A stretch of DNA of 64,000 bases from Methylophaga sp. (lineage in GTDB: Bacteria > Pseudomonadota > Gammaproteobacteria > Nitrosococcales > Methylophagaceae): contig NVVW01000002.1 of NCBI GenBank assembly GCA_002733505.1, positions 1 to 64,000 of the forward strand. Direction: 5' to 3'. The number at the start of each line of letters is the position of its first letter. The stretch's first letter is position 1. This document shows, one piece after another, positions 19,509 through 35,293 of the stretch. The notes under the pieces were generated by a model that searched no databases, was not told the origin of the DNA, and saw nothing but the letters and a program-made list of their open reading frames with translations. The position numbers and the translations under genes were made by a program.

Positions 19509-19644
19509 TCATTCAATTTGCGGTTTTTTATCCGTCATTGCGAACGCAGTGCGGCAATCCAGCTCTGCCCAGACTAGATTGCTTCGCGTTGCTCGCAATG
19601 ACGGTGTATTATTAACCACTGCATCTTCATTGATTACGAGTATA
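19498..19644. repeat. Dispersed MITE-like element with the alternative (type B) core
   Basis: The left end TATACCCGTGATCATTCAA (19498-19516) and the right end CTGCATCTTCATTGATTACG plus AGTATA (19619-19644) are inverted copies of each other. The core is a different palindrome from most copies: CCGTCATTGCGAACGCAGTG ... GTTGCTCGCAATGACGG (19532-19604). The left end supplies the HAD gene stop codon, and the right end stops two bases before the next gene's ATG. Confidence 0.8.
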
Positions 19645-19646
19645 TA

Positions 19647-20240
19647 ATGAGCCGATATCAACATCCTTTAAGCCTGTTGGCTTTATCTTTTTTACAGGTG
19701 TTACTCATAATAAGTCTGTTATATATTCAATTTACCGATGGTTTTTCCACCTTTTATACTGCTTTTTTCGCAGCAACCGCTATTAATACTACACTTATTT
19801 TTGTAGCATTTGGTTTACCTGTTTTTACAAAACTGGCTTTGACGCTTCGCGAGCACTCCAAATACGCTAGCGCTATTGTTTTATATCAACTCTATTTACA
19901 TATTATTATTGCTGCGTTCATTATTTTCGATCATATTTATGGTCGTAACTACATGGCAATATTTCTGCTTTCACCCTTTTTGATCATTTTTTTTATGACT
20001 GCCAGAATTACATGGCGTGCGTGCTTCGCTGTTTTAGGGTCAAAAATCTACAGTATCTTTGCAACCGGCTCAACAGCGCTACTGATCTGGAGCATGGTAT
20101 TAACCCTGCTGGGCTTGTTCTATCAACACCGTTTTCTATCAGAAAACCTACACACTTTGGTGCTTATTTACTTTGCAATACATTTTGCCGAGCTTGGTTT
20201 TGTGCTGCTCAAAATCAAAAAAGATCTAAGCGCTATTTAA
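19647..20240 (+). CDS. Hypothetical multi-pass membrane protein
   Basis: A 197-residue, strongly hydrophobic protein with about six predicted membrane spans (e.g. LLALSFLQVLLIISLLYIQF, IFVAFGLPVFT, YLHIIIAAFIIFDHIY, IFLLSPFLIIFFMTARI, ALLIWSMVLTLLGLFY, LVLIYFAIHFAELGFVLL). I do not recognise the family. It is an isolated plus-strand gene whose 3' end overlaps that of the convergent MFS gene by 15 bases. Its start lies immediately beside a dispersed element, so the promoter may come from that element. Confidence 0.6.
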   Translation: MSRYQHPLSLLALSFLQVLLIISLLYIQFTDGFSTFYTAFFAATAINTTLIFVAFGLPVFTKLALTLREHSKYASAIVLYQLYLHIIIAAFIIFDHIYGRNYMAIFLLSPFLIIFFMTARITWRACFAVLGSKIYSIFATGSTALLIWSMVLTLLGLFYQHRFLSENLHTLVLIYFAIHFAELGFVLLKIKKDLSAI

Positions 20241-21647
20241 ATTGCGATCATCTAAGGTATTCAAAATCTCATTATGTGCTTTTCTATCAAGCTGATATTT
20301 CGATGCTGACCAATAAATCAAGGGTGAAAGCGCTATCAATAACCACGTTGGCACCATTGCTAAACTATAAGCCGTTTCAATGGACTGCTCCGTTAACGTT
20401 GAATCAAAACCGATCACTTCTAATAATATGCCTCCAATCAAAATGCTAATCGAAATGCCCGCTTTATAAGAAAAATTATACATACCAAAATAAAGCCCTT
20501 CCTGCCGCTGACCTGTTTTTATCTCACCCTGATCAATAGCATCTGCCACCATTGAAAAAGGCAATGACATAAAAGCGCCATTACCTATGCCCGCCAGCAC
20601 ACTAAACCCCATCATGGTGTATACCGTCTGCGGCTGATTAAGGGGCAACCACTCTAAGGCAACATAGGCCATCGGTAATCCGGCAAAACCGAGTATTGCG
20701 AACGCCATTCCCATAATAAGTGCTGTTTTTTTCTCAAAGCGACGGCTTAGATAAACCCAAAACGGTTGTGACAAAATAGAAAACACCAGCACCGTAATAC
20801 CTATAGCGCCAATTTGTGGGCCGGTTAAATTATAGGTATATGTGCTGACGTGAAAGCCGATACTAATGGATACCTGAAAGGCAATTTCGATGATAAAAAT
20901 CATTATAATAATCGCTCTGAAATTAGCATTTTTTAAACTCTCAACTGCTAACTTCCAGACATTTATTTTTTGCTCTAACTCCTGCTGGCTGGGCTGTTTT
21001 CTATCTTTAGGAATAACAACAACGGCAATTAATGCGATAACTACCGTGATTATTGCAATAGTAAAACCCATAGCAGGGTAGGCTTCAGGATTTAATTGCC
21101 CTTTAGGATATTCTGCCGTAGATCTAAAGAAAATCACTGTCATACCTGCAACGGCAATAATCATCCCTATAACATGAAAGGTCGCACGGTAACTTTGAAT
21201 GCTGGTTCGCTCGTCATAACTTTTACTAAGGCTTCCGCCCATTGCAAAATAAGGCGCACCATAAAAAGTAAGCATGGTTTTAGTAAACAACACAAAAACT
21301 AATAGCAGAGTTATTTTATAGGCCTCGCTAGCCTCTGGAGAAATTGACCATAGTAATGCTGTGCCAACCGCGGTACCTACACCGCCAATAATTAAATACA
21401 GATGGCGCCGACCAAATCGATCTGATGTTGTTCGATCAGAAATATGTCCTATCCAAGGATCGGTCACCGCATCCCAAAGCACCGATATTGCCACAATAAC
21501 ACCCGCAACCATGGGCGAAATATGTAAAACGACCGTCACATAAAACAAAAAGAAACTGGCCATTATTTGATTTGGCACCGCATACGCTATCGCGCCTAAA
21601 CCATAACCTAGCTTTGCCTTTACCGGTAGTCTTTGTGCATCAGTCAT
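20226..21647 (-). CDS. MFS transporter of the GPH (MelB-like) cation symporter type
   Basis: A 473-residue, 12-span transporter. The N-terminal KLGYGLGAIAYAVPNQIMASFFLFYVTVV pattern and LWDAVTDPWIGHISDRTTSDRFGRRHLY match the glycoside-pentoside-hexuronide:cation symporter group, whose relatives carry sugars or other small solutes with Na+ or H+. The substrate here is unknown. The gene starts two bases after the acyl-CoA synthetase-like gene ends, so it is surely co-transcribed with that gene and the ThiF-like gene. It likely moves the substrate or product of that island. Confidence 0.87.
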   Translation of the reverse strand: MTDAQRLPVKAKLGYGLGAIAYAVPNQIMASFFLFYVTVVLHISPMVAGVIVAISVLWDAVTDPWIGHISDRTTSDRFGRRHLYLIIGGVGTAVGTALLWSISPEASEAYKITLLLVFVLFTKTMLTFYGAPYFAMGGSLSKSYDERTSIQSYRATFHVIGMIIAVAGMTVIFFRSTAEYPKGQLNPEAYPAMGFTIAIITVVIALIAVVVIPKDRKQPSQQELEQKINVWKLAVESLKNANFRAIIIMIFIIEIAFQVSISIGFHVSTYTYNLTGPQIGAIGITVLVFSILSQPFWVYLSRRFEKKTALIMGMAFAILGFAGLPMAYVALEWLPLNQPQTVYTMMGFSVLAGIGNGAFMSLPFSMVADAIDQGEIKTGQRQEGLYFGMYNFSYKAGISISILIGGILLEVIGFDSTLTEQSIETAYSLAMVPTWLLIALSPLIYWSASKYQLDRKAHNEILNTLDDRNLNSA

Positions 21648-21649
21648 TA

Positions 21650-23248
21650 TTATATCGCCTGTTCTGCATTAAGCGTCTCCTTAAGAGCCTCTCGCACTTC
21701 ACGCCGCAATACTTTACCCAATAAACTACGCGGCATTTGTTCTACAAAAACAATGTCTAGCGGCATTTGCCATGCGTGAATGCGTGAATCAAGCAGTGCC
21801 TTAATCTCAGCCTTCATCTGCGCTTTGTCCCTCTCTACAAAAGCTTGACGTACTGAAACACATAATACTGGCTTATCCGCTATCGCAACTAAACAACATT
21901 CCTTTACTGCGGGATGATCATGCGCCTCTTCTTCAACAAGGCGCGGATAAATCATACCACCATCACTTGCAATCAAGTCTGGCTGTCTATCAAGAATATG
22001 TAAATAATTTTCTTGATCCAAATAACCATGATCACCGGTAACAAAAAAACCGTCCTCTAAAATAACGCCTTTATTTTGTTCTGGGTTAAGATATGTTTTA
22101 AATCGTGTCGGCGTATTAACCTGCACCGATCCCACTTCCCCAAAAGGTAGAATATTATCATTAGCATCAACAATTCTTACCTTCACCCCCTCTACTACTT
22201 TGCCGCATGAACTCAAAATTGATCGGCTGACAATCTTGCCCTCTCTCATGTGACCTGCGCTCGACAACATGCTAACCGGCGGCAATATTTCTGCTTGGCC
22301 ATAACCTTGTTGAAAGATTGGGCCAAAGCGAGTAATCGCCTCTTCTAACTTGGCCGCTGGCATAGGTGCAGTGCCATAAATAATATGATCTACCGTTGCT
22401 AAATCTTTATCCATAGATTCTGGCAGATCTAATAAATCAATTAAATGACTGGGTGTTAAAAATAAACGGGTTGCTCCAAATTTTTTCACCGTGGCAACAA
22501 GCTGAGCAGGGCTATATTCATCTAGCAAAATCAATGTGCCACCACTTAATATCGTTGGCATAACTAAGCCCGAACCCGCACCCACCAATGGTATTGCCGT
22601 TAAATTAATATTAATAGCCGAGCGATCAGGCACTTTCTCAATATTTTTCACCATCATTTTTAGGCTGGTAATGGCAGAGCCATGACTTGAAATCAAGCCT
22701 TTAGGTGCGCCCGTTGTGCCAGATGTAAACCCTAAAGCCATCGGATCATCAGGCGATATCTGAACTTTTGTCAATATTGGTTGATGAGCCGCTAATTCCT
22801 GCTCATAGTTTCCACTGGCGCCCGTTTCCCATATCGGCAGTTCTGCTACTGCCGCACGCATTACTTCTGCACTGCCAACACCATAAGCAGGATCAACAAT
22901 AAATAATTTTGGTGGTGCTTTACCTGCCGCATCAACAATAAACTCGGCTGGGTGAGCCTGGTGAAAAGTAGTTAAGATAATACCTAGCTCAAGTGCCGCG
23001 GTACGAATTTCAAATAATTCTTTCTCGGCCTGCACCTGTGCAAAAATAATATCACCTTTTCCAAGCCCAGCGGCTTGCCATGCGGCAACCAGCCGATAAG
23101 ATCTATTCTCAAGCTCTTTATAGGTAAGCGTTGTATCTACTGTTTTTAATAAGATTCGATCTGAAAATTTGGCAAAAGCATAGCGATGCACATCGCGCGG
23201 TAATCTTAATTTTGATAAAAACCAATTTAATAAGAATTTTTGAAACAT
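21650..23248 (-). CDS. Acyl-CoA synthetase / class I adenylate-forming enzyme
   Basis: A 532-residue ANL-superfamily enzyme that activates a carboxylic acid as an acyl-adenylate. The P-loop is GFTSGTTGAPKG (173-184), the A5 region is QQGYGQAEILPP, and the A7/A8 region is GFFVTGDHGYLDQENYLHIL. The catalytic lysine is Lys512 in SLLGKVLRREV. The substrate and whether CoA is the acceptor cannot be read. It is 10 bases downstream of a ThiF-like E1 gene and two bases upstream of an MFS gene, which suggests one pathway handling a carboxylate. Confidence 0.88.
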   Translation of the reverse strand: MFQKFLLNWFLSKLRLPRDVHRYAFAKFSDRILLKTVDTTLTYKELENRSYRLVAAWQAAGLGKGDIIFAQVQAEKELFEIRTAALELGIILTTFHQAHPAEFIVDAAGKAPPKLFIVDPAYGVGSAEVMRAAVAELPIWETGASGNYEQELAAHQPILTKVQISPDDPMALGFTSGTTGAPKGLISSHGSAITSLKMMVKNIEKVPDRSAININLTAIPLVGAGSGLVMPTILSGGTLILLDEYSPAQLVATVKKFGATRLFLTPSHLIDLLDLPESMDKDLATVDHIIYGTAPMPAAKLEEAITRFGPIFQQGYGQAEILPPVSMLSSAGHMREGKIVSRSILSSCGKVVEGVKVRIVDANDNILPFGEVGSVQVNTPTRFKTYLNPEQNKGVILEDGFFVTGDHGYLDQENYLHILDRQPDLIASDGGMIYPRLVEEEAHDHPAVKECCLVAIADKPVLCVSVRQAFVERDKAQMKAEIKALLDSRIHAWQMPLDIVFVEQMPRSLLGKVLRREVREALKETLNAEQAI

Positions 23249-23258
23249 TTTTCAGCCT

Positions 23259-24134
23259 TTAGTCCCCGCCAGCCAATGCCGGTATCATTCGTTTTAACAC
23301 CTTCATTCGCAATCTTTGTAGAGGGTTTTTAGCGCCCCACCAGCGGTAACGCTGTTTATAGGTTTGTGAATAGGTATCGTATTGAGAAAACCACGGTACA
23401 AATTTAGGTTTGCGTTTATTCAGCACCAAACTTATCACCTCTGTTGCCGCAATACCCGATCCAATCTGGCAAGCCAAGCCTAAGGATGGCGCAGCGCCCG
23501 TACTGGGATCAACACCTTTTACATCCATATATTTTAAATGCGGCCCTTGACCTGCTATGCCCACCATAAATTGTAATACCATTTCATCCTTACTCATACC
23601 ATCTTCAAGGCCAAAAAAAGTATCATAATCCATACCTGTTGGCGAAAGAATAAAAACAACCGCACTAAAACCAATAGGGCCAATAGAGATAACCGGAATA
23701 CCAAGTTCACGCGCCCGCTTAAAAATAAGACGCCGCGCATCCATTGCAAACACTTCAAGCGCATCAATCATCACATCAACATCGGCTAAGAACTCATCAA
23801 TATTTCCGTGTCCTACCGCCTCATTAATCACCCTCACCTCTGCACTGGGATTAATATCCTTGATCACCTCCTCCATCACTAAGGCCTTATCTTTGCCTAC
23901 TGTACTCGCCATGGCACCATGTTGACGGTTGATATTGTGCACATCAAACTCATCAAAATCGGCAATAGTAAATTTACCTATGCCCGTTCGCGCTAAAGCC
24001 ACGGCATGCACGCCCCCCATGCCGCCCATACCCGGAATAGCAATCCGCGTATTTTTTAATATTTGCTGCTCTTGTTCACTAATTAAGCCTCGGTTTCGGC
24101 TAAATGCCCGATTGTAAAAATCATCTAAAGCCAT
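23259..24134 (-). CDS. ThiF/MoeB/E1-like adenylyltransferase, copy 1
   Basis: A 291-residue Rossmann-fold protein with the E1-type ATP site: GMGGMGG (35-41), ADFDEFDVHNINRQ (58-71, the Asp and Asn-x-x-Arg region) and IDALEVFAMDARR. ThiF, MoeB and MccB proteins adenylate C-terminal carboxylates or peptides. This one lacks the CxxC zinc pairs of ThiF/MoeB and an obvious catalytic cysteine. It resembles uncharacterised stand-alone proteins annotated as ThiF family. The C-terminal tail is basic (NPLQRLRMKVLKRM). GAAGG precedes the ATG. It is followed by the ligase and MFS genes, and is closely related to two upstream copies. Confidence 0.85.
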   Translation of the reverse strand: MALDDFYNRAFSRNRGLISEQEQQILKNTRIAIPGMGGMGGVHAVALARTGIGKFTIADFDEFDVHNINRQHGAMASTVGKDKALVMEEVIKDINPSAEVRVINEAVGHGNIDEFLADVDVMIDALEVFAMDARRLIFKRARELGIPVISIGPIGFSAVVFILSPTGMDYDTFFGLEDGMSKDEMVLQFMVGIAGQGPHLKYMDVKGVDPSTGAAPSLGLACQIGSGIAATEVISLVLNKRKPKFVPWFSQYDTYSQTYKQRYRWWGAKNPLQRLRMKVLKRMIPALAGGD

Positions 24135-24150
24135 AATTACCTTCTACTAA

Positions 24151-24299
24151 TTTTATTCATCCGTCATTCCGGTTTTATTCATCCGTCATTCCGGCATGTT
24201 TTTAGCCGGAATCTGCATTGCCAACAAACCAGATCCCCCGATAAGCTTGTGCTCAGCTTGACTGGGTAAAATCTCGAGAATGACGTATAGAGACTGCCA
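24151..24299. repeat. Dispersed element (type A core) with a 22-bp tandem duplication
   Basis: The stretch TTTTATTCATCCGTCATTCC plus GG is duplicated in tandem (24151-24172 and 24173-24194). It is followed by the type A core GGCATGTTTTTAGCCGGAAT and the segment GATAAGCTTGTGCTCAGCTT shared with the copies at 25.3 and 36.2 kb. The ends are degenerate. It fills the gap between two ThiF-like paralogues. Confidence 0.65.
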
Positions 24300-24301
24300 A
24301 G

Positions 24302-25171
24302 CTAATCACTTAACGCCGGCACCATCTTACGCAACACCTTCATGCGTAATCGCTGTATTGGATTGCGCGCGCCCAACCAGCGGTAATGATTTTTATAGTA
24401 TCGTGCATAAGGATCAAAATGCTGAAACCAAGGTATAGCCTTAACAGGCCTGCGTTTCAACACCCAATTAATCACTTCTGTCGCCACCATGCCCGCACCG
24501 ATATTGCATGCCATACCAACAGAAGGCGCACCGCCCGTTGTTGGGTCTATTTTTGTCACATCCATATATTTTAAATGTGGGCCGACTCCGCCAATGCCTG
24601 CCAGAAAATACAGTACCATTTCATTATTAGACATCTCATCATTAAAACCAAAAAAAGTATCACAATCCATACCGTCAGGAGCAAACAAAAACATGGCAGC
24701 ACTAAACCCTATCGGCGCAGTGAATAATACTGGAATGCCTAACGCTTTCGCTCGACGATAAATTAAACGGCGTGCATCCATCGCAAACACATCTAAGGCA
24801 TCAATCACTATATCAACATCGACTAAAAATTCATCAACATTATCAGCGCCAATCGCCACATCAAATACGCGCACATCTGCACCGGGGTTAATATCTTTGA
24901 CCTTTTCAGCCATGACCGATGCTTTTAGTTTGCCAACCGTGCTCGCCATTGCACCATATTGACGGTTGATATTGTGCACATCAAATTCATCAAAATCGGC
25001 AATGGTATAACGCCCTATCCCTGTTCGGGCTAAGGTGGCTGCATGCAAGCCGCCCATACCACCCATTCCAGGAATAGCCACTCGCGTATTCTTTAATTTT
25101 TGCTGTTCTTGTTCGCTAATCAAGCCACGGTTGCGGCTGAAAGCACGGTTATAAAAATCATCTAAATCCAT
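24302..25171 (-). CDS. ThiF/MoeB/E1-like adenylyltransferase, copy 2
   Basis: A 289-residue paralogue of the copy at 23.3-24.1 kb. The N-terminus is almost the same (DDFYNRAFSRNRGLISEQEQ; GMGGMGG; ADFDEFDVHNINRQ), while the middle and C-terminal parts have diverged (MFLFAPDGMDCDTFFGFNDE; GAGMVATEVINWVL). This pattern suggests a tandem duplication with functional divergence. It too lacks zinc-site cysteine pairs. It is separated from copy 1 by a repeat-filled gap of ~170 bases, so the two may be one transcript. The ribosome site is weak (AGAGAG). Confidence 0.85.
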   Translation of the reverse strand: MDLDDFYNRAFSRNRGLISEQEQQKLKNTRVAIPGMGGMGGLHAATLARTGIGRYTIADFDEFDVHNINRQYGAMASTVGKLKASVMAEKVKDINPGADVRVFDVAIGADNVDEFLVDVDIVIDALDVFAMDARRLIYRRAKALGIPVLFTAPIGFSAAMFLFAPDGMDCDTFFGFNDEMSNNEMVLYFLAGIGGVGPHLKYMDVTKIDPTTGGAPSVGMACNIGAGMVATEVINWVLKRRPVKAIPWFQHFDPYARYYKNHYRWLGARNPIQRLRMKVLRKMVPALSD

Positions 25172-25240
25172 AATGCTCTCTTATTTAATTTATCTATCCA
25201 CCCTGTCTTCGTTTGCTACATTTCGCTGCTTTTAAAGCAT

Positions 25241-25343
25241 CGTCATTCCGGCATATTTTTAGCCGAAATCTACATTGAAAACGAACTAGATCCCCCGATA
25301 AGCTTGTGCTCAGCTTGACTGGGTAAGATCTCAAGGATGACAC
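25241..25343. repeat. Dispersed element core, type A
   Basis: The stretch CGTCATTCCGGCATATTTTT ... GATAAGCTTGTGCTCAGCTT ... is a near copy of 24186-24285 and is related to 36181-36279. Clear terminal repeats are not visible. It lies in the 349-base gap between ThiF-like copies 2 and 3. Confidence 0.65.
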
Positions 25344-25383
25344 GTTTAATTTAAATTTGGTATTTTCCATTTAACACCCCGTT

Positions 25384-25491
25384 CGTCATTGCGAGCAACG
25401 CGAAACAATCTAGGCAGAACTGGATTACTTCACTGCGTTCGCAATGACGGGTCGAAACTAGATCCCCGCTTACAAACATGCGGGAATGACA
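25384..25491. repeat. Type B palindrome joined to half of a type A core
   Basis: CGTCATTGCGAGCAACGCGA ... CGTTCGCAATGACGG (25384-25450) is an inverted-repeat palindrome like that at 19532-19604. It runs straight into a type A half-core (GATCCCCGCTTACAAACATG CGGGAATGAC). A 12-base direct repeat, TTCCATTTAACA, flanks the block at 25365-25376 and 25515-25526. The block ends where ThiF-like copy 3 is cut off. Confidence 0.65.
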
Positions 25492-25520
25492 AGTTTTACT
25501 TTAAAGCAGGGATCTTCCAT

Positions 25521-25958
25521 TTAACAAACTGCTTTTTTATAAAGCAAAAGCCGCGCATCCATTACAAACACATCCAAGGCATCAATCATCACATCCACAT
25601 CAGCCAAAAACTCATCCGCATTATCAGACCCAATAGCCTCATTAATAATCTTAATCTCAGCGCTGGGATTAATATCTTTGATAATGCTCGCCATCACTTG
25701 CGCTTTATCTTTATCAACCGTGCTCGCCATCGCGCCATATTGACGATTAATATTATGCACACCAGATTCATCAAAATCAGCAATAGTGAATTTGCCAATG
25801 CCTGTTCGCGCTAGTGTTACCGCATGAGTCCCGCCCATACCGCCCATGCCTGGAATAGCCACTAGTGTATTTTTTAGTTTTTGTTGATCCTCTTCGCTTA
25901 TTAAGCCTCGGTTACGGCTAAAGGCTCGATCATAAAAACTATCAATATAATTGTTCAT
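25521..25958 (-). pseudogene. Truncated ThiF/E1-like gene, copy 3
   Basis: A 145-codon frame that matches the first half of the two adjacent ThiF-like proteins: FYDRAFSRNRGLISEEDQQK, GMGGMGG, ADFDESGVHNINRQ and IDALDVFVMDARLL. It stops after KKAVC, where the full-length copies continue for ~145 more residues. The missing half is replaced by a block of dispersed repeats beginning at ~25520. No clear ribosome site precedes the ATG. It is most likely a decayed third copy, though the nucleotide-binding half is intact and could still be made. Confidence 0.8.
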
Positions 25959-25997
25959 TCGGGATCATTTAGCCTAATGGCAGCACGAGACAAAATA

Positions 25998-26038
25998 AAG
26001 CCACTTACACCGGTTTTGTGTAAATGGCTTCGTTTTTT
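25998..26038. terminator. Bidirectional intrinsic terminator after the TonB receptor gene
   Basis: A 13-bp stem (25998-26010 with 26018-26030, one wobble/mismatch) encloses a 7-base loop. It is followed by a T-run on the plus strand (26032-26038) and by TTTATTTT on the minus strand. It sits 15 bases past the stop of the TonB-dependent receptor gene and separates it from the truncated ThiF-like gene. Confidence 0.75.
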
Positions 26039-26052
26039 AACTTCAATGCCAG

Positions 26053-28338
26053 TTAAAACTTAACACTGGCTGTAACCCCATAAGTTCGTTCTATTGGTGC
26101 TTGCGTTAAAGAATTAAAGCGCTGATAGCCCGTCACTCCAGGAATAAAATCTGCAGCTTGTGCTGGGTTAGGAATAGCAACCGCTCCCACTGTCTCATCA
26201 TTATCAAACAAGTTTCTTACCCAAAACTTAATCGCATATTTATCACTTTCAAAGCCACTGCGCAGATTCACAACAGTACGGGAAGGAATGAGTGGTGGGT
26301 TATCAACAGCAACACCCGACTGCTCAGATTGATACATCACGTCAATGCGTGTTTTCCAATCAAAGTCTGCTATAGCAAAGGGCTTGGTATATTGCACAGA
26401 GGTATTGGCCGTCCATTCCGACACATATTGCATCCGGTTGCCATCTAATACCGGGTTCATCCCAAGCCCTGCAAGTGCTCCAAAAGTATAGTCATCGTAT
26501 TCGGCATCCGTATATGACAATCCTGCCATTACATCCCAATTTTGGGCAGGTTTAGCAGCAATTTCTAACTCAAAGCCTTTCGATGTTGACTGACCTGCAT
26601 TTTCGTTCAATACTGCTCCAGAATCACCTAGCGCACGAACAATTTGATCATCCCACTTAATGTAGAAAACAGCTAGGTTAGCTGTTAAGCGATTATCCAA
26701 CCACGAACTTTTAATACCGACTTCATAGTTAATGCTTTTTTCTTCATCATATGTACGCTCATCAGCAGCTACCGCTCCCGAGTCTGTAGCTGTATTAAAG
26801 CCACCTGATTTAACTGCTTTTGCCACGCTTGTATAAATCATCGCATTATCAGAGATCTGATAATCTAGTGCGACTTTAGGCGTAAAGTTATTAAAGCTAG
26901 CGCTATCACTAAATCGACCAACGGCTCCTGTGTCTAAGTTAGTGTCAACCACATCAACTTCTTTTTCCTCATAAGCATATCGACCCGATAATGTCAGCGC
27001 CCATTGGTCGCTTAAATCAAAACCAACAGAACCAAATACCGCCCAATTTCGTGTGCTTTCATCAACATCCGATGATAAACCTGGGGCAAGTGCATTTGCT
27101 AAAACCAGCCCCCCCCCAAGAGGAACAGGAGCAAGTGGCGCTCCCGCTACAAATGCATCATTTGTTTTAGTGTTTCTGTCTAAATCATAAAAATAGAGGC
27201 CGCTCATCCAGCGAATAGATTGATCAACTGACGTTATTCTAAATTCTTGGCTAAATTCATCTTGCTCCATCTCTGTCTCCGTCATGCGGATCTCTCTTGC
27301 TTCATAATCACTATCAACAAGTGAGTCAAACTCTAAATCGTTATAGCCTGAAATTGAGGTGAGCGTTACATTATCTAAATCCCAGTTCACCTGAAAGGAG
27401 GTGTTTACATTATCACGTTCATTATGACCCGGTGTTACAGCAAAACCTTTAGTAATGCTTGGCAAGTCGCCACCGTAGCTTTGAAAATCATTAAAGGTGA
27501 TAAACGCCGGCAGTCTAGGGCTAACTCTATTTGTTGTGAAGTCTTGATTATTTTCAACAAACTGCACAGCATCATCACCATCATTGGTATTTTCAACTCC
27601 TACACGAAATACCATTTCTAAATTATCCGTTGGCAATGCTACTAGTGAAAGTGAATAATTATTGCTTTGCTTCTCATCTAAATTGCTACCATCAAGCTCA
27701 TTTTTATAAAAGCCATCAAAACCAGAATGCATGGCACCAACACGATAAAACAAGGTGTCTTCAGTTATCGCACCACTATGAGAAACACGCACATCCTTAC
27801 GCCCTTCATTGCCCAGTGTTACCTCAAGCCTGCCTTCCGGCTCATTACCCGGTTGCTTGGTAATGTAATTAATTGCACCGGCAAAGGTGTTGCGCCCATA
27901 CAATGCACTTTGTGGGCCTTTAGCAATTTCTATACGCTCAAGCTCATCACCAAACATCGCCTCCATTGCGCCACGCGCTTCTTGGTAAACACCGTCAAGG
28001 AAAAAACCAATATTAGGCTCGCCAATTGTCGTATTCATCCCGCGAATAACGGGGTTGCCGACTCGACCGCCAAACAAGGGTGTGTAAGTGAACCCTGGCG
28101 TCATCATTGCAATATCTTCAATGTCCTGCAAGCCCGCATCTTCAATTAATTCTGCTGAGAAGGCAGTAATCGCAATCGGCACTTGTTGCAATGTTTCTTC
28201 ACGTTTGCGCGTCGTTACCACCATTTCACCTAAACTAAGTGAGTCGGCTCCGGTAGTGTCATCACCCTCAGCAAAAGCAATGGTGGGTACTGAAAGTATT
28301 TGACAACAGGCCAGACTAATAATGGTGCGTTTAAACAT
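26053..28338 (-). CDS. TonB-dependent outer-membrane receptor
   Basis: A 761-residue outer-membrane transporter energised by TonB. A signal peptide (residues 1-~23, ISLACCQILSVPTIAFA) is followed by a TonB-box-like stretch (LGEMVVTTRKREE) and the plug domain (VPIAITAFSAELIEDAGLQD; GPQSALYGRNTFAGAINYIT). A beta-barrel follows, ending in a C-terminal aromatic residue (YGVTASVKF). The style resembles receptors for complex organic ligands, but the ligand is not readable. It stands upstream of the ThiF-ligase-MFS genes on the same strand, yet a terminator separates them, so shared function is inference. Confidence 0.93.
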   Translation of the reverse strand: MFKRTIISLACCQILSVPTIAFAEGDDTTGADSLSLGEMVVTTRKREETLQQVPIAITAFSAELIEDAGLQDIEDIAMMTPGFTYTPLFGGRVGNPVIRGMNTTIGEPNIGFFLDGVYQEARGAMEAMFGDELERIEIAKGPQSALYGRNTFAGAINYITKQPGNEPEGRLEVTLGNEGRKDVRVSHSGAITEDTLFYRVGAMHSGFDGFYKNELDGSNLDEKQSNNYSLSLVALPTDNLEMVFRVGVENTNDGDDAVQFVENNQDFTTNRVSPRLPAFITFNDFQSYGGDLPSITKGFAVTPGHNERDNVNTSFQVNWDLDNVTLTSISGYNDLEFDSLVDSDYEAREIRMTETEMEQDEFSQEFRITSVDQSIRWMSGLYFYDLDRNTKTNDAFVAGAPLAPVPLGGGLVLANALAPGLSSDVDESTRNWAVFGSVGFDLSDQWALTLSGRYAYEEKEVDVVDTNLDTGAVGRFSDSASFNNFTPKVALDYQISDNAMIYTSVAKAVKSGGFNTATDSGAVAADERTYDEEKSINYEVGIKSSWLDNRLTANLAVFYIKWDDQIVRALGDSGAVLNENAGQSTSKGFELEIAAKPAQNWDVMAGLSYTDAEYDDYTFGALAGLGMNPVLDGNRMQYVSEWTANTSVQYTKPFAIADFDWKTRIDVMYQSEQSGVAVDNPPLIPSRTVVNLRSGFESDKYAIKFWVRNLFDNDETVGAVAIPNPAQAADFIPGVTGYQRFNSLTQAPIERTYGVTASVKF

Positions 28339-28549: not shown

Positions 28550-29614
28550 ATGACTGATGGAAAACGCACACTAATTCAAGGATGGTTGTTATGCCTATTT
28601 ATTACCTCCCTACTCGTTACCCATTCTTTTGCTCCAGCCTATGCAGGGGATGATGACTCACAACAGTTTGCTACCCCGGTATCAAGTACGGTGCTAGAAC
28701 AGATTCTATTTTTCCCCTCACGTGAAGCGCCGGCAACGGTTGTCAGCCTAAACAACAGCATGATTAGTGCAGAGATTTCAGGCGAAATTCTTGAGATCCT
28801 AGTTCAAACAGGCGATGAAGTTAAAAAAGATGATGTTCTAGCTAAAATTGATTGTGAGCCTTATCAAATCGCCAAGCAACGTGCTAATGCAGCGCTTAAT
28901 TCTGGCTATGCGCGTAGCAAATATGCCAAACAACGCCAGAAAGATGCGGAAAAATTACGAAGTAGCCGTGCTATTTCTGTAGATCAACTTAATATGCGTA
29001 GCTCTGAAGCCAATGCACTAGCATCAGAAATTGGCGTATTAGCCGCAGATTTAAAAGAAGCCAAGCGCCGTATCACCAAATGTATAATCACTGCGCCTTT
29101 TGATGCGGTTGTGGTCGAACGACAAGCCAGTGTAGGGGACTACACCATCCCCGGTTCGGTATTGGTCAAATTATTAGATCTTAATAACTTAGAAGTAAGC
29201 GCTAAAATCCAACAGCAAGATGTAGGCAGCCTAAAAACGGCAAGTACCATTTCCTTTATCACATCAGGTAAAACACATCCTGTAACGAACCGTACTGTCG
29301 TTCCATTGGTAGATAGTCGAATTCGTAGCTATGAAGCACGTCTTGATTTTACCAAAGATGTTGCCTCCACCGGTTCTGCTGGTCGGCTGCGATGGCAAAG
29401 CGATCAGGTTCATATCCCTGCCGATTATCTAGTAAAACGAAATGAGCAATTAGGCATTTTTATTAATAAAAATGGCACCGCTTATTATCATGTGCTCAAT
29501 GCAACGGGCAATGGCTTGCCTGCTGCTATTGATTTGCCTGCAAACACAGAAGTAATAACAACCGGTAGATATGGCCTAGTTGATGGCCAAGCTATAAAAA
29601 TAGTAAACCCGTAG
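28550..29614 (+). CDS. RND efflux periplasmic adaptor (membrane fusion protein)
   Basis: A 354-residue secreted adaptor: a signal peptide (residues ~8-32, ending APAYA), then the split lipoyl domain (ISAEISGEILEILVQTGDEVKKDDVLAKIDC and ITAPFDAVVVERQASVGDYT) around a coiled-coil hairpin (~residues 105-165), and beta-barrel domains. It bridges an inner-membrane RND pump to an outer-membrane channel. The pump gene follows on the same strand after a 145-base gap that holds a dispersed element. No TolC-type channel gene is present nearby. Confidence 0.88.
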   Translation: MTDGKRTLIQGWLLCLFITSLLVTHSFAPAYAGDDDSQQFATPVSSTVLEQILFFPSREAPATVVSLNNSMISAEISGEILEILVQTGDEVKKDDVLAKIDCEPYQIAKQRANAALNSGYARSKYAKQRQKDAEKLRSSRAISVDQLNMRSSEANALASEIGVLAADLKEAKRRITKCIITAPFDAVVVERQASVGDYTIPGSVLVKLLDLNNLEVSAKIQQQDVGSLKTASTISFITSGKTHPVTNRTVVPLVDSRIRSYEARLDFTKDVASTGSAGRLRWQSDQVHIPADYLVKRNEQLGIFINKNGTAYYHVLNATGNGLPAAIDLPANTEVITTGRYGLVDGQAIKIVNP

Positions 29615-29617
29615 GTG

Positions 29618-29755
29618 GAAGGGCATGATACATGAAATTACGGTTTCCACATTTTCACCCTACCGTCATTCCCGCATGTGCTTAGCGGGAGCCTTGCTTA
29701 CACTCAGATCCCGGCTAAAATCCTGCCGGAATGACATTGATTTCACTTGGCTATA
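29618..29755. repeat. Dispersed element (type A core) inside the RND operon
   Basis: The type A core CGTCATTCCCGCATGTGCTT (from 29664) and its inverted partner CCGGCTAAAATCCTGCCGGA (29711-29730) are followed by a right terminal repeat ending GGCTATA at 29755. The left end (~29618-29640) is degenerate. The pump gene's ATG lies five bases beyond the right end, so that gene's upstream signals come from the element. Confidence 0.65.
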
Positions 29756-29759
29756 AAAC

Positions 29760-32700
29760 ATGTATCGCAAGCTTCTCACTAACACGGTTCTTGTTAACCT
29801 AACTTTCTTGCTGGTTGTTGTTGCAGGTTGGCTCAGTTACATGTCAATGCCGCGAGAACAAGATCCCGATGTCAATTTTAATTGGGTTATTGTCAATACT
29901 GTTTGGCCGGGCGCTACCGCTGAAGATGTTGAAAATCAAATTACCAACCCGATTGAAGATGAAATAGAAAAAATAGCCGATGTAAATCGTGTATCAAGTA
30001 GCAGTCGCGTTGCTTTTTCTTTCATCGTGATTCGTTTTGCAGATATTGAAACCCGTGAATTTCGTCAGCGCATTGAAGAGCTTCGTCGCGGTATCCAGTC
30101 TGCAGTCGATAATCTGCCGCCAGATGCCAAACAGCCCATTGTTACAGAATTATCTAGCTCAAACACCTATCCTACTGCGGTTGTCACCGTTTCAGGCATA
30201 GAAAATGATGAGCTATTGCGCCGAACTTCGCGCGATGTTGCTAAAGATATTGCACGCATAAAAGGTGTTGATCGTGCCGACACATGGGGCATCGAAGATC
30301 CTGAATTACAAGTGCTCTTTGATCCTGAAAAACTGATTGGTTTAGGTGTGTCGCCTACTGTTTTAGCCAGTACCGTCAATGCCTATTTTAGAGACCTGAC
30401 CGCGGGCAGTATTCAGCTCGGCGAACAACAATGGCGAATTAGGCTGAGCGGAACAAGCAATGACCCCAATTATCTTGCCGAACTGCCCATATTAACCATT
30501 GAAGGTGAGCTACCCTTGCGCAGTGTTGCTACCATAGTTCGCGGCCAAGAAAAGCCCTCACAGTTAGTTTCCTATGAAGGCCGGCCTGCCTCGATGATAT
30601 CCGTATTTAAACGCGGCAACGCCAATAGTCTTTCCTTATTAGAGGATCTGCAAGCTTATGTTTACGAGCGTAATTACGCCTTAGAAGGTCAAGGCATTCA
30701 CCTTGATATTGTAGACGACCAAACGGTAGCAACACGCACCGCTATCGGTTTGATGGAAAAAAATGCTTTGATCGGTCTTATGCTGGTCATGTTGGTGACA
30801 GGCGTATTTCTTGGCTGGAAAATCGCTGTATTTACGGGTATCGGGCTTGTTTTCTCTTTGATGGGATCGTTTTGGATCTTAGCTGCCATGGGTGAAACCT
30901 TAAATATTATGGTTTTGCTTGGTATCGTTATTGTTTTGGGAATGCTAGTCGATGATGCCGTTGTTGTTGTTGAGTCAATGTATGTCAACCTCAGAAAAGG
31001 CATGTCAAGCATTGATGCCGCCCTAGCTACGGCGGATGAAATGTGGGTGCCGGTGATGGTGTCATCGCTCACCACCATTGCTGCCTTTTTACCGCTTATT
31101 TTATTGCCGGGTATTTTAGGGCAGTTTATGCGCATTGTGCCTATCGTGGTTTCCGTTGCTTTAGTGGTCAGTTTAATTGAAGCATTTTGGTTGTTGCCAT
31201 CACATATTATTTCAGCCAATCCAGATCCTGCAAAACTTGGCCTTATTCAGCGAACACGAAATCGTGTAACAAATTGGATCCGTCATCGCTATATCCATGT
31301 GCTTATTCCTGTTATGCGCTTTCCTAGATTAAGCATTTCGGCAGGGGCGATGCTTAGCTTGCTTGCTGTTTTTGCGGTAACAAGCAATTTTGTACGTGTT
31401 GATTTTTTTGCAAATGACCCCATTCGCCTGTTTTATCTTAATGTTTATATGCCCGCAGGCACCTCATTAAGTAGCACCGATGAAGCACTAAAAAGACTTG
31501 ATGTTAGAATTCGCCAACGCCTTGATGCCAAAGAATTTCGCTCTATCTCAACAACAGCAGGTGTGTTACTCACCGAAACAGAGCCGCTATTTGGCGATAG
31601 CATGGGGCAAATAATGTTTAGCCTGCCGGCTCGAACCAACGGCTTACACTCTGTTGATGAGTTAATTGAACAGGTGAGGCTAGCCACCCAAGATATTCCT
31701 GGGCCGACACATCTATCCTTTTTACGTCGCAACACCGGCCCACCCAGTGAAAGCCCTATTAGCGTAAAAGTACGTGGTGATAAAATAGATCAATTACGTC
31801 AAGCGACCGCCGCTTTAGAAGCGCTTATGGTAACCATTCCCGGCATCCAAGATCTGCATAGTAATGATGCACTAGCAGGCCCACAACTCACGCTTAAACT
31901 CAATCCTGATGCCATTACTCGCGCCCAGCTTAACCCTGCTGATATTGCTGAAATTTTGCGTCTCTATGTAGATGGCAGTACCGTGGCGAATATGCGTTTT
32001 GAGGGTGAAAAATGGAATGTACGGGTAAAAGCAACGCCCAGCTCATTACAAGATATAAAATCCTTTTTAAATTATCCTATTGGTTTGGCTGATGGTAGTG
32101 AAATTGCGATCGGGCAGCTCGTCACCTATTCCTCATCTTATGCTGAAAGCACCATTCATCACCGTAATTTTAGACGCACCATTACCTTAGAAGCCGATCT
32201 TGATAGCGAGGTAAATAACAGTATAAAAGCAAATGCCCAAATTGCTGAAAGGTGGCAAGATATTGCCGATCAATATCCAGATGTAACATTAGATTTTTCA
32301 GGTGAAATGGATGATATAAAAGAAAGTTTAAATGGTATGGCCGTGCTATTTTTATTTGGGATCGGCCTGATCTATATGATCTTAGGAACCCAATTTAAAA
32401 GTTATTCCCAACCACTACTGATTCTGGCAACCGTGCCGATGGCCTTTACCGGTGTTATTTTGGGGCTTATTGTGAGCAATAATCCATTAAGCTTATACAC
32501 ATTATATGGGGTAATTGCACTCGCCGGCATTGTGGCTAATGACGCGATCGTATTGATCTCGACCGCCAATCGTAATCTTGCCAAAGGCATGTCGCTGACC
32601 CACGCCATCATTAAAGCCGCTCAACGTCGTGTAATGCCGATCTTAATCACCACTGTTACCACCATGGCTGGCTTGTTTTCGCTAGCGGCCGGTTTGGGTG

Positions 32701-33281
32701 GCAAGTCCTTAATGTGGGGGCCTTTAGCGACGGCAATTGTTTGGGGTCTAGGCTTCGCCACTATTTTAACACTGTTGCTGACCCCTCCTTTATACGCTTT
32801 TATTATGCGCAATAAGACCGGCAAAAAAGCTATTCTGGCATCGCCACCACCACTGCCTGATAGCTCCGGCGGTATGGTTGCCTCAATTAATAACCTATCA
32901 TCATTCTTTAGCAAAGAACGTCAGGTTGATAAGGCAGGTTTAGATGAAATTGCCGCTCACGGCTCACTTAAAACAATCTATGAAATGGCAACAAAAGCAT
33001 TTGAAAATGGCGAAGCAGAAATTGCTATTCGCCACTTCCAAGCATTAGCAAAACACCTACCCAATAATTTCACCATTAACTTAATGGCAGCACAGTCAAT
33101 CATGTTGTATATGCAAGGCATTGGTTGGGATATTGGTTATCTTGATCGTGCTAAACGTTATTTTGCCAAAGCAAAACAAGTGCACCCTGATGATGCCCGC
33201 GTAATTCATCTAGCGGCGCTAATCAAAGAGCTTGATACCAACAGTGATGTAGCAATAGACTGGGGGAAACTAGCTAAGTGA
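29760..33281 (+). CDS. RND efflux pump permease with a C-terminal TPR-like extension
   Basis: A 1173-residue proton-driven inner-membrane exporter of the HAE/AcrB-like class. The N-terminus (MPREQDPDVNFNWVIVNTVWPGATAEDVENQI), the proton-relay segment GIVIVLGMLVDDAVVVVE (~residue 390-407) and the second membrane block (GVIALAGIVANDAIVLI) are all typical. Family members are usually ~1020-1050 residues. Here the last ~120 residues form a soluble helical region (KTIYEMATKAFENGEAEIAI; AKRYFAKAKQVHPDDARVIH) that looks like TPR repeats, probably cytoplasmic. No clear ribosome site precedes the ATG. Substrate unknown. Confidence 0.92.
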   Translation: MYRKLLTNTVLVNLTFLLVVVAGWLSYMSMPREQDPDVNFNWVIVNTVWPGATAEDVENQITNPIEDEIEKIADVNRVSSSSRVAFSFIVIRFADIETREFRQRIEELRRGIQSAVDNLPPDAKQPIVTELSSSNTYPTAVVTVSGIENDELLRRTSRDVAKDIARIKGVDRADTWGIEDPELQVLFDPEKLIGLGVSPTVLASTVNAYFRDLTAGSIQLGEQQWRIRLSGTSNDPNYLAELPILTIEGELPLRSVATIVRGQEKPSQLVSYEGRPASMISVFKRGNANSLSLLEDLQAYVYERNYALEGQGIHLDIVDDQTVATRTAIGLMEKNALIGLMLVMLVTGVFLGWKIAVFTGIGLVFSLMGSFWILAAMGETLNIMVLLGIVIVLGMLVDDAVVVVESMYVNLRKGMSSIDAALATADEMWVPVMVSSLTTIAAFLPLILLPGILGQFMRIVPIVVSVALVVSLIEAFWLLPSHIISANPDPAKLGLIQRTRNRVTNWIRHRYIHVLIPVMRFPRLSISAGAMLSLLAVFAVTSNFVRVDFFANDPIRLFYLNVYMPAGTSLSSTDEALKRLDVRIRQRLDAKEFRSISTTAGVLLTETEPLFGDSMGQIMFSLPARTNGLHSVDELIEQVRLATQDIPGPTHLSFLRRNTGPPSESPISVKVRGDKIDQLRQATAALEALMVTIPGIQDLHSNDALAGPQLTLKLNPDAITRAQLNPADIAEILRLYVDGSTVANMRFEGEKWNVRVKATPSSLQDIKSFLNYPIGLADGSEIAIGQLVTYSSSYAESTIHHRNFRRTITLEADLDSEVNNSIKANAQIAERWQDIADQYPDVTLDFSGEMDDIKESLNGMAVLFLFGIGLIYMILGTQFKSYSQPLLILATVPMAFTGVILGLIVSNNPLSLYTLYGVIALAGIVANDAIVLISTANRNLAKGMSLTHAIIKAAQRRVMPILITTVTTMAGLFSLAAGLGGKSLMWGPLATAIVWGLGFATILTLLLTPPLYAFIMRNKTGKKAILASPPPLPDSSGGMVASINNLSSFFSKERQVDKAGLDEIAAHGSLKTIYEMATKAFENGEAEIAIRHFQALAKHLPNNFTINLMAAQSIMLYMQGIGWDIGYLDRAKRYFAKAKQVHPDDARVIHLAALIKELDTNSDVAIDWGKLAK

Positions 33282-33538: not shown

Positions 33539-35281
33539 TTACACCCAATTATTTTGTTTTGCCGCCTGCAGTTTTATGTAGCCTTCAAGTAGTTTTGTAT
33601 GTCGCTCAAAACCCTCTAAACTTAGACCCGGGCAGTGCAAGTCATGAAAAATAGTATTACCCTCCACAATCGCTAAACCCTCTGCGGCATTCTGCTTGCC
33701 ATACAGTTTCTCTAAGCCCGCTAAATAGTCTGCATAATCACGCTGCGGGTGCCATTTAATTTCTAGCAACGCTTTTATGCAACGATATTGAAGTAGCTTT
33801 TCATCAGATCCTTGTCCAAGCGCCAAACACCAATCCAGCCATTCCATCGCTTGCTGATCCTGCAGTGCAAGATACAACATGGCTTTAATCTCGCCTAAAC
33901 GTATTGTCGCCCATAAAGTATGAGCATCAGGCGCTAAGCCGATAAATGCCGCCGCCAAAGTTTGATCGTTATAAGCGCCCTCGTCCAATCGGTCTAGAAT
34001 GCCTTGCCACTGCTCACTATTACCCTGTTTTAATGTTAAAAAATCTTCGCGAAACAAGGCGCCTTCATTATTATTTTCCCAAACAAGTTCATCGACAGGA
34101 TATATATCAGACATGCCGGGCACTAAAATACGGCAGGCATAGACATCTAAATGTTCATAATCAGCAATGTAAATATCAAATCCCATCTGGTGAATTTTAT
34201 TGCTCAGATAATCAAATTCATCCGCTGTTTCACTATCATGATCCCAATCATAAAATTCATAATCTGCAGTAGATCGGAAAAAGTCATTTGAAATGTAACC
34301 GCTAGAATCAATAAAATGCATCTCTAAATTCTGCGGAGAAGCCACTTCCTCTAAATCAAATATCGGTGGATGAAAGACATCAAGCTGGTCTAGGTTTCGC
34401 CCTTGTAATAACTCGGTTACCGTGCGCTCTAAAGCCACCTCGAAACTAGGATGAGCACCAAAAGAAGCAAACACCGATCCGTCTTTTGGGTTTATCAGCG
34501 TCACACTCATTACCGGGTATTTGCCACCTAAAGAAGCGTCAGCAACTTTAAGAATATAGCCATATTGTTCTAGCTCTTGTATTGATTTTTGAATATCTGG
34601 ATAACGATCTAACACTTCTTTCGGTAGATCCGGCAAGCAAATACCTTCTGCAATGATCTTATTTTTGACATAGCGTTCAAAAATTTCTGATAGTGATTGA
34701 ACCCGCGCTTCATTTTGCGTATTACCCGCTGACATACCGTTACTGACAAAAATATTGGCAATAATGTTAATGGGAATATAAATTGATGCTCCATCTTGTA
34801 GGCGATGATAGGGTACAGCGCAAATTCCTCGCTCTCCTGTTCCAGAGTTTATATCGAACAATTTATCGGGGCTTAACTCATTCTCCGGGTCAAAATACTG
34901 CCATAAAGCTTGATCCATTAACCCCGAAGGCATTACATCACCAGAGCCTTCAAACCAGCGTTCATTTGGATAATGTACAAAGTCGCCGTTACTATGGTGT
35001 TCACCGAGGTAAAAATCAGCAAAGAAATAATTACAGCTTAACCGCTCAAAATACTCGCCCAAAGCACTGGCCAAACATGCTTTTTTACTGCTGCCTTTGC
35101 CATTGGTAAACATCAACGGACAGCTTTTATCACGAATATGCACAGAATAAACATTGCTAACAGGATTGAGCCAAGAAGCTTGTTCAATATCAAAACCAAA
35201 TGACTTTAATTTTGCCTCCATCGTTGCAATACTGGTTTCCAGATCGCTGTCTTTACCTTTGATATATGTTTTTTCTGTCAT
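33539..35281 (-). CDS. ycaO: YcaO (ribosomal S12 methylthiotransferase accessory factor)
   Basis: A protein of ~580 residues that matches E. coli YcaO along its length: YIKGKDSDLETSIATMEAKL, FEIEQASWLNPV-type start (here FDIEQASWLNPVSNVYSVHIRD), FTNGKGSSKKACLASALGEYFERLS, NARVQSLSEIFERYVKN-type (here NEARVQSLSEIFERYVKNKI), TVTELLQGR and IADYEHLDVYACRILVPGMSDIYP. YcaO-fold proteins bind ATP to activate amides; the E. coli protein supports RimO methylthiolation of ribosomal protein S12. It is not a RiPP cyclodehydratase, and no precursor gene is near. ATG at 35281 fits the homologue best; the frame also has ATGs at 35284 and 35293. Confidence 0.93.
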   Translation of the reverse strand: MTEKTYIKGKDSDLETSIATMEAKLKSFGFDIEQASWLNPVSNVYSVHIRDKSCPLMFTNGKGSSKKACLASALGEYFERLSCNYFFADFYLGEHHSNGDFVHYPNERWFEGSGDVMPSGLMDQALWQYFDPENELSPDKLFDINSGTGERGICAVPYHRLQDGASIYIPINIIANIFVSNGMSAGNTQNEARVQSLSEIFERYVKNKIIAEGICLPDLPKEVLDRYPDIQKSIQELEQYGYILKVADASLGGKYPVMSVTLINPKDGSVFASFGAHPSFEVALERTVTELLQGRNLDQLDVFHPPIFDLEEVASPQNLEMHFIDSSGYISNDFFRSTADYEFYDWDHDSETADEFDYLSNKIHQMGFDIYIADYEHLDVYACRILVPGMSDIYPVDELVWENNNEGALFREDFLTLKQGNSEQWQGILDRLDEGAYNDQTLAAAFIGLAPDAHTLWATIRLGEIKAMLYLALQDQQAMEWLDWCLALGQGSDEKLLQYRCIKALLEIKWHPQRDYADYLAGLEKLYGKQNAAEGLAIVEGNTIFHDLHCPGLSLEGFERHTKLLEGYIKLQAAKQNNWV

Positions 35282-35293
35282 CATATTACCCAT

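Follow-up and report, generated by a model that had tools for sequence, protein, structure and literature searches.

A gene island of the marine, methanol-consuming bacterium Methylophaga sp. (assembly GCA_002733505.1, contig NVVW01000002.1, positions 1 to 64,000 of the forward strand, hereafter the 64,000-nucleotide window) was analyzed for its gene content, conservation and likely chemistry. The genome holding the window (G000) is a 2.37-Mb draft, 93.5% complete. Read on the minus strand from 28338 to 20226, the island encodes a TonB-dependent receptor, three E1-like ThiF paralogues in the order C (truncated), A and B, an ANL-superfamily ligase and an MFS_2 symporter (Table 1). The first-pass annotation had described this gene content at the same positions, and it was borne out. 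Its ThiF description held for all three copies, one truncated and two full, with GMGGMGG and HNINRQ motifs present and no zinc CxxC pair seen in A, B or C; so did its spacing of 10 bases between thiF-B and the ligase gene and 2 bases between the ligase and symporter genes. The proposal of one transcript stood in part. A single transcript is likely for thiF-A, thiF-B, ligase and symporter only; a strong terminator-like hairpin (26031-25997; 14 pairs, T-rich tail) lies directly 3′ of the TonB gene, so the TonB and thiF genes may be transcribed separately. The functional unit is larger than had been noted, since the divergent RND adaptor and pump genes (28550-33281) match the island in genome distribution and are counted as part of it.

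Table 1. Genes and features of the island and of the divergent RND genes (positions in the window; aa, amino acids).
Feature	Position	Strand	Length; domains and families
TonB-dependent outer-membrane receptor	26053-28338	-	761 aa; PF00593, PF07715
thiF-C, truncated third paralogue, pseudogene	25521-25958	-	145 aa; PF00899
Palindromic-repeat spacer, thiF-C to thiF-A	25172-25520	n/a	repeat families D3, D5, D10, I1-I3
thiF-A, E1-like adenylating enzyme	24302-25171	-	289 aa; PF00899; NF006077
thiF-B, paralogue with Asp127 to Glu	23259-24134	-	291 aa; PF00899; NF006077
ANL-superfamily acid ligase	21650-23248	-	532 aa; PF00501 + PF13193
MFS_2 symporter, MFSD2A-like	20226-21647	-	473 aa; PF13347
RND periplasmic adaptor, divergent from TonB gene	28550-29614	+	TIGR01730 above cut-off
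RND pump with C-terminal extension	29760-33281	+	PF00873

Membership of the NF006077 (PRK08223) family was defined by a whole-protein score above the curated NCBIfam cut-off of 266 bits. ThiF-A and ThiF-B scored 344.6 and 340.5 bits, and truncated ThiF-C scored 189.2 bits, as expected for half a protein, which assigns all three copies to this family at the sequence level. In a tree with the MoeB- and TcdA-like proteins of the genome as outgroups, the island ThiFs formed one clade (100/100) inside NF006077, and therefore one entry followed by local duplication is indicated. The AlphaFold (AF2) model of ThiF-A (pLDDT 92, pTM 0.91) was nearest in fold to AclA of Tenacibaculum discolor (PDB 9egb; VIA Z 28.3, 2.3 Å over 241 residues, 22% identity), with which it also gave a sequence-profile match; MoeB and ThiF came next. 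A sulphur-carrier E1 of the MoeB/ThiF type was rejected because there is no CxxC pair and no ThiS-like open reading frame (ORF). No conserved small ORF that might encode a ThiS/MoaD-like partner was found between the island genes, and no relatives of the island were found on viral contigs. PADLOC E1-E2 models matched the nucleotide-binding core of the ThiFs (E ~1e-17), as they would any E1-like domain, and this is what speaks for an E1-based conjugation system of the bacterial ubiquitin-like or defence kind. However, the matches span about 100 residues of models 400-600 residues long, no E2, JAB or ubiquitin-like gene lies among the island genes, and the family-specific match is NF006077; we consider such a system hardly credible.

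The NF006077 family was present in 40 of 369 gammaproteobacterial genomes (class draw), and the neighbourhoods of 27 NF006077 loci outside Methylophaga were surveyed. In 23 of the 27, the ThiF had a nearby or fused synthase for N-acyl amino acids (TIGR03694 or FeeM-like); a nitroreductase-type oxidase was found in 13 and hence is not universal in the family. Many of these loci lie within exosortase/PEP-CTERM loci, and several carry a LolA-like, porin-like and MMPL set. Judged by gene content, these neighbourhoods are built like the oxazolone synthesis systems OxzAB, TyzACB and TrzAS. In Mycobacterium tuberculosis, TyzB acts with TyzC, and its ThiF-like part cyclises an N-acyl amino acid at the expense of ATP (PMC10404671). 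TrzS, and OxzB as recounted in the same paper, are ThiF-like ATP-dependent oxazolone cyclases (PMC12856293). The same gene pairing is found for dehydro-N-acyl-tyrosines, where the role of the ThiF is still termed enigmatic (PMC12479983). The earlier statement that no known pathway fits was therefore mistaken for the ThiF part, since NF006077 relatives show the oxazolone-cyclase architecture (PMC12856293, PMC10404671). ThiF-A qualifies as an oxazolone-cyclase-type ThiF by family, neighbourhood and catalytic residues, an assignment distinct from a direct sequence comparison with OxzB, TyzB or TrzS. Because oxazolone systems close the ring within the substrate, no separate acceptor protein is expected. 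Among the relatives, a plasmid protein of Nitratidesulfovibrio vulgaris (WP_011176612.1, 989 aa; L118:7080-10049) combines a FeeM-type synthase, a ThiF and a nitroreductase in a single chain and is annotated merely as a ThiF family protein.

The usual partners of such a cyclase were searched for in the genome. No N-acyl amino acid synthase (OxzA/TyzA/TrzA, FeeM-like) was found in G000 by TIGR03694, PF13444 or PF21926, and in the Methylophaga genomes G008 (99% complete) and G023 (95%) the synthase models found only an OlsB-like fusion. An FDO-type (FDO-A) nitroreductase-superfamily flavin oxidase was likewise not found in G000, the only matches (E 1e-5 to 1e-4) being short stretches at the N-terminus of ordinary nitroreductases of 207-247 aa. 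The island looks like a variant of a known oxazolone-type pathway in which the usual first enzyme is missing.

What the island has is an ANL ligase, whose residues mark it as an intact adenylate-forming enzyme. The P-loop TSGTTGAPKG and the C-terminal catalytic Lys512 are kept, and TSGTTG..K and PRS.LGKVLRRE occur in all five homologues. With the features required for adenylation also held by the ThiFs, activation of a carboxylate, as first proposed, is plausible. The ligase exceeded no NCBIfam cut-off (best PRK06187, 274 bits vs 476), its nearest solved structure is the fatty acid-coenzyme A (CoA) ligase FadD8, and the literature on ANL amide ligases offered nothing decisive. The pairing of an ANL and an E1-like enzyme in one cluster had been called unusual, which is only partly right: the thioquinolobactin and PDTC clusters both contain the two kinds of enzyme. 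A ligase homologue (E<=1e-80) was present in only 1 of 368 other gammaproteobacterial genomes (G106), where it lies ~7 kb from an NF006077-type ThiF gene and adjoins an MFS_2 gene. The chance that a single outside ligase carrier has a family ThiF within 10 kb is small, so the ThiF-ligase linkage is regarded as solid. Neither synthase nor oxidase was found on the ligase contig of G106, and no FDO genome-wide; the sole GNAT match of the synthase superfamily was not counted as a synthase because it is an OlsB-like fragment at a contig end. Both ligase-bearing lineages thus belong to the small number of ThiF loci that lack a synthase, which is suggestive and, with so few lineages, not proof. The G106 ligase itself is a 1336-aa MMPL transporter-ANL ligase fusion (L072:13558-17568) beside MFS_2, YCF48-like and DUF1329 genes; nearby on L072 are also a LolA-like/porin-like/MMPL set and the NF006077-type ThiF.

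Conservation was then compared within the genus. NF006077 ThiF and ligase genes occurred in exactly the same 4 of 29 genomes (G000, G008, G023, G028), and gene order was identical in two other Methylophaga genomes. G008 and G023 carry TonB-A-B-ligase-symporter, with the divergent RND adaptor and pump and the same flanking genes, and G028 has B-ligase on a 3-kb contig. The first-pass annotation had treated the island as a linked unit and named scattering of its genes in related genomes as the outcome that would speak against this; the genes were found together, in the same order. At the site between the HAD gene and ycaO, the inspected genomes were otherwise empty (G019, G015) or held a different RND pump (~25% identity). 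Comparisons among the three complete islands gave ratios of nonsynonymous to synonymous substitution rates (dN/dS) of about 0.03-0.04 for thiF-A (close to 0.036), 0.05-0.06 for thiF-B (close to 0.05), 0.09-0.10 for the ligase, 0.06-0.08 for the symporter, 0.08-0.15 for TonB and 0.03-0.07 for RND, and 0.02-0.05 for flanking pyrB/pyrC. Random cargo or decayed genes were rejected on the ratios of thiF-A, thiF-B and ligase (0.03-0.10) set against those of pyrB/pyrC. The dS of most island genes equalled that of the flanking pyr genes (about 1.0-1.5); a recent transfer was rejected for this reason, indicating that descent in this clade was mainly vertical. Recombination is possible for the symporter only, whose dS between G000 and G008 is 0.58. 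The island is therefore a conserved, selected locus.

The history of the island can be followed in its remnants. L032 has an intact thiF-C orthologue (287 aa) immediately behind the same TonB gene, with the apparent start of A following it, and remnants of thiF-C are seen in the window (C-terminal) and in G008 (N-terminal), indicating the ancestral order TonB-C-A-B-ligase-symporter. In G014, a 136-bp junction (L108:5006-5141) is a deletion scar in which the first part of a ThiF gene adjoins TonB and the last part of the ligase gene adjoins the symporter. These remnants indicate that the enzymes were deleted in G014 from an ancestral complete island. The RND adaptor was kept in place in G008, G023 and G014. 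The interval from the HAD gene to ycaO could also be a hot spot in which transport and enzyme genes lie side by side without being related. This would agree with the variability of the site, where other Methylophaga have a different RND or nothing, with the loss of enzymes only in G014, and with the terminator-like hairpin that separates TonB from thiF. Nevertheless, order and pairing are the same in all complete carriers, and TonB, the symporter and this RND are absent at inspected sites showing no enzyme trace, which makes the explanation quite improbable.

Several further observations were made around the island. Palindromic intergenic repeats of the GTCATTGCGAGC... and GTCATTCCGGC... types (19533-19604, 24140-24290, 25180-25520, 29663-29736) occupy gaps of the island and its flanks, and thiF-C is interrupted at one such repeat. 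A 197-aa ORF (19647-20240) without a Pfam match shares 15 bases with the end of the symporter gene; it is present in G008 at 71% and was not found in G023. The neighbouring YcaO (33539-35293) scored above the NF040716 cut-off, which makes it the ordinary accessory factor of the S12 methylthiotransferase rather than a peptide cyclodehydratase. A Rhodobacteraceae metagenome-assembled genome has a ThiF of the island type (70% identity) at a contig end (L035:10001-10309), in a stretch of 57-58% G+C. This copy extends the island ThiF clade beyond Methylophaga, and transfer to or from alphaproteobacteria is possible.

The transport genes were examined for hints of the ligand. The RND pump, found in only 4 of 29 genus genomes, shares 49% identity with the RNDs that three genomes of the same order carry next to ThiF-oxidase fusions, but 25% with the RND that other Methylophaga have at this site, indicating that it belongs with the ThiF system. 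The TonB receptor is siderophore-receptor-like in general and below every NCBIfam cut-off, its best PDB match being the pesticin receptor (E 2e-22). For the symporter, the best PDB match was MFSD2A (E 2e-29), compared with E 1e-10 for MelB; its cation motif WDAVTDP (WDAxTDP) is kept and the Lys is aligned. These aligned residues do not separate lipid from sugar. Sugar transport by a GPH symporter was rejected because TIGR00792 gave 184.5 bits against a cut-off of 231 and MFSD2A is nearer. Another route would be salvage: lipo-amino acids or lysolipids of other organisms would be imported by TonB and the MFSD2A-like symporter, with no de novo synthesis. The ligase would trap the imports as CoA esters, the ThiF pair would re-activate or detoxify them, and RND would be a safety valve. 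A genome with neither synthase nor oxidase, the transport genes standing alone in G014, the fusion of the G106 ligase to an MMPL lipid transporter and a close ligase-symporter coupling that resembles vectorial acylation all agree with it. On the other hand, the RND exporter is conserved together with the island, and the strong constraint on two ThiF paralogues suggests a dedicated synthesis step. Salvage is the strongest rival, and we hold it to be doubtful rather than probable.

The ThiF active sites were compared with 40 relatives. The ATP-site residues R13, D61, N69, R70, K83 and D127 (A numbering) are invariant among them, and ThiF-A and ThiF-C retain all of them. In ThiF-B, column 127 is Glu in 3 of 3 orthologues, whereas it is Asp in 40 of 40 relatives and in MoeB and TcdA. 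In E. coli ThiF the matching residue is the TD(N)-motif Asp, which corresponds to MoeB Asp130. Because Glu127 is fixed under purifying selection, a partner role of ThiF-B is suggested, in an A/B pair with one working site, comparable to eukaryotic E1 heterodimers. In TrzS, a conserved adenylation-motif Asp, which may be the equivalent of column 127, is needed for cyclisation, as seen with D217A (PMC12856293). Two further columns that are invariant in relatives are altered in the clade of the island: all three copies carry Y173F, and A and B have G/A in place of P195. These pocket changes, the missing synthase and oxidase, and a receptor nearest to siderophore receptors in a metallophore-like arrangement of RND out and TonB in would suit another chemistry. 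The ThiF pair and ligase might form another bond (thiocarboxylate, amide or ester to a small molecule) or a TonB-reimported metallophore, with no intramolecular ring. However, no ThiS-like, JAMM, non-ribosomal peptide synthetase or other sulphur or siderophore gene lies in the cluster, nor does a conserved small ORF between the genes, and we regard this alternative as unlikely.

Taken together, the reading we favour, tentatively and at somewhat less than an even chance, is a rewired acyl-amino-acid/oxazolone pathway, an orphan carboxylate-adenylating cyclase locus for an amphipathic acyl-amino-acid-like molecule in which the ligase replaces the synthase. This is proposed because the ThiFs belong to NF006077, whose relatives have synthase/oxidase neighbourhoods; because synthase and oxidase are missing and a rare ligase lies near a ThiF in G106; because ThiF and ligase co-occur in the same genomes, order and place; because D127E is fixed in ThiF-B only, under purifying selection; and because the RND resembles ThiF-oxidase-linked pumps and a lysolipid symporter is the closest solved structure to the MFS_2 protein. 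ThiF-A, as a dimer or a heterodimer with ThiF-B, would spend ATP on adenylating the free carboxylate group of its substrate, a small amphipathic acid that is most probably an N-acyl amino acid, and a neighbouring group of the same molecule would displace AMP and close the ring (an oxazolone or similar). ThiF-B may be mainly a structural partner, lending an Arg finger. The ANL ligase would stand in for the N-acyl amino acid synthase by adenylating the acyl part, which could pass to CoA or be joined directly to an amine. RND would export the product or precursor, and the TonB receptor and MFSD2A-like symporter would re-import the amphipathic molecule. A bolder form, in which non-homologous replacement of the synthase and a ThiF heterodimer with one dead site yield a secreted, re-imported acyl-heterocycle in at least two lineages, convergent or ancient, seems rather unlikely.

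Several points weigh against the rewired oxazolone-type pathway. A synthase from families outside those searched could exist. The G106 symporter is merely 26% identical to that of the island, and the G106 and island ThiFs are not sisters. Asp to Glu is a conservative change, and ThiF-B may still be active. The changes in pocket columns Y173 and P195 leave room for a substrate other than a standard N-acyl amino acid. Moreover, G014 retains symporter, TonB and RND with the ThiFs and ligase gone, indicating that transport can be of use on its own. Gene content, family membership, conservation, selection, linkage and absence of the usual synthase and oxidase are what we observe; from them we infer the substrate, ring closure, division of labour and transport direction.

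Within the widespread family of NF006077-type ThiFs, the island retains the cyclase and swaps its partners, adding dedicated import and export and an E1-like duplicate with a fixed active-site change. It thus makes testable what this cyclase family activates and whether a small-molecule E1-like enzyme became a one-site heterodimer. If the bolder form is true, marine methylotrophs would have a new type of pathway to signals, metallophores or surfactants.

Compared with known systems, the island ThiFs share the E1-like fold of TcdA (the ct6A cyclase), MoeB and ThiF. TcdA adenylates a carboxylate for intramolecular cyclisation. The targets of these proteins are a tRNA or a carrier protein, however, and G000 has separate MoeB- and TcdA-like proteins (L001, L004). 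AclA is the nearest solved fold, its function being taken from the PDB title alone. The symporter belongs to MFS_2 together with the lysophosphatidylcholine symporter MFSD2A and MelB, and its cation-site aspartates and lysine align with theirs, although sequence similarity is distant. The stand-alone NF006077/PRK08223 ThiFs of PEP-CTERM/exosortase loci are of the same family and length and have the same ATP-site residues, whereas the island does not lie in an exosortase locus and its ThiFs form a diverged clade with F173 and G/A195. With OxzAB, TyzACB and TrzAS (Pseudoalteromonas rubra, M. tuberculosis), the island shares a related ThiF-like, ATP-dependent carboxylate-adenylating domain. It differs in having no synthase or flavin oxidase in the genome and two to three tandem ThiF paralogues, and in their stead it carries an ANL ligase, a TonB receptor and an MFSD2A-like symporter.

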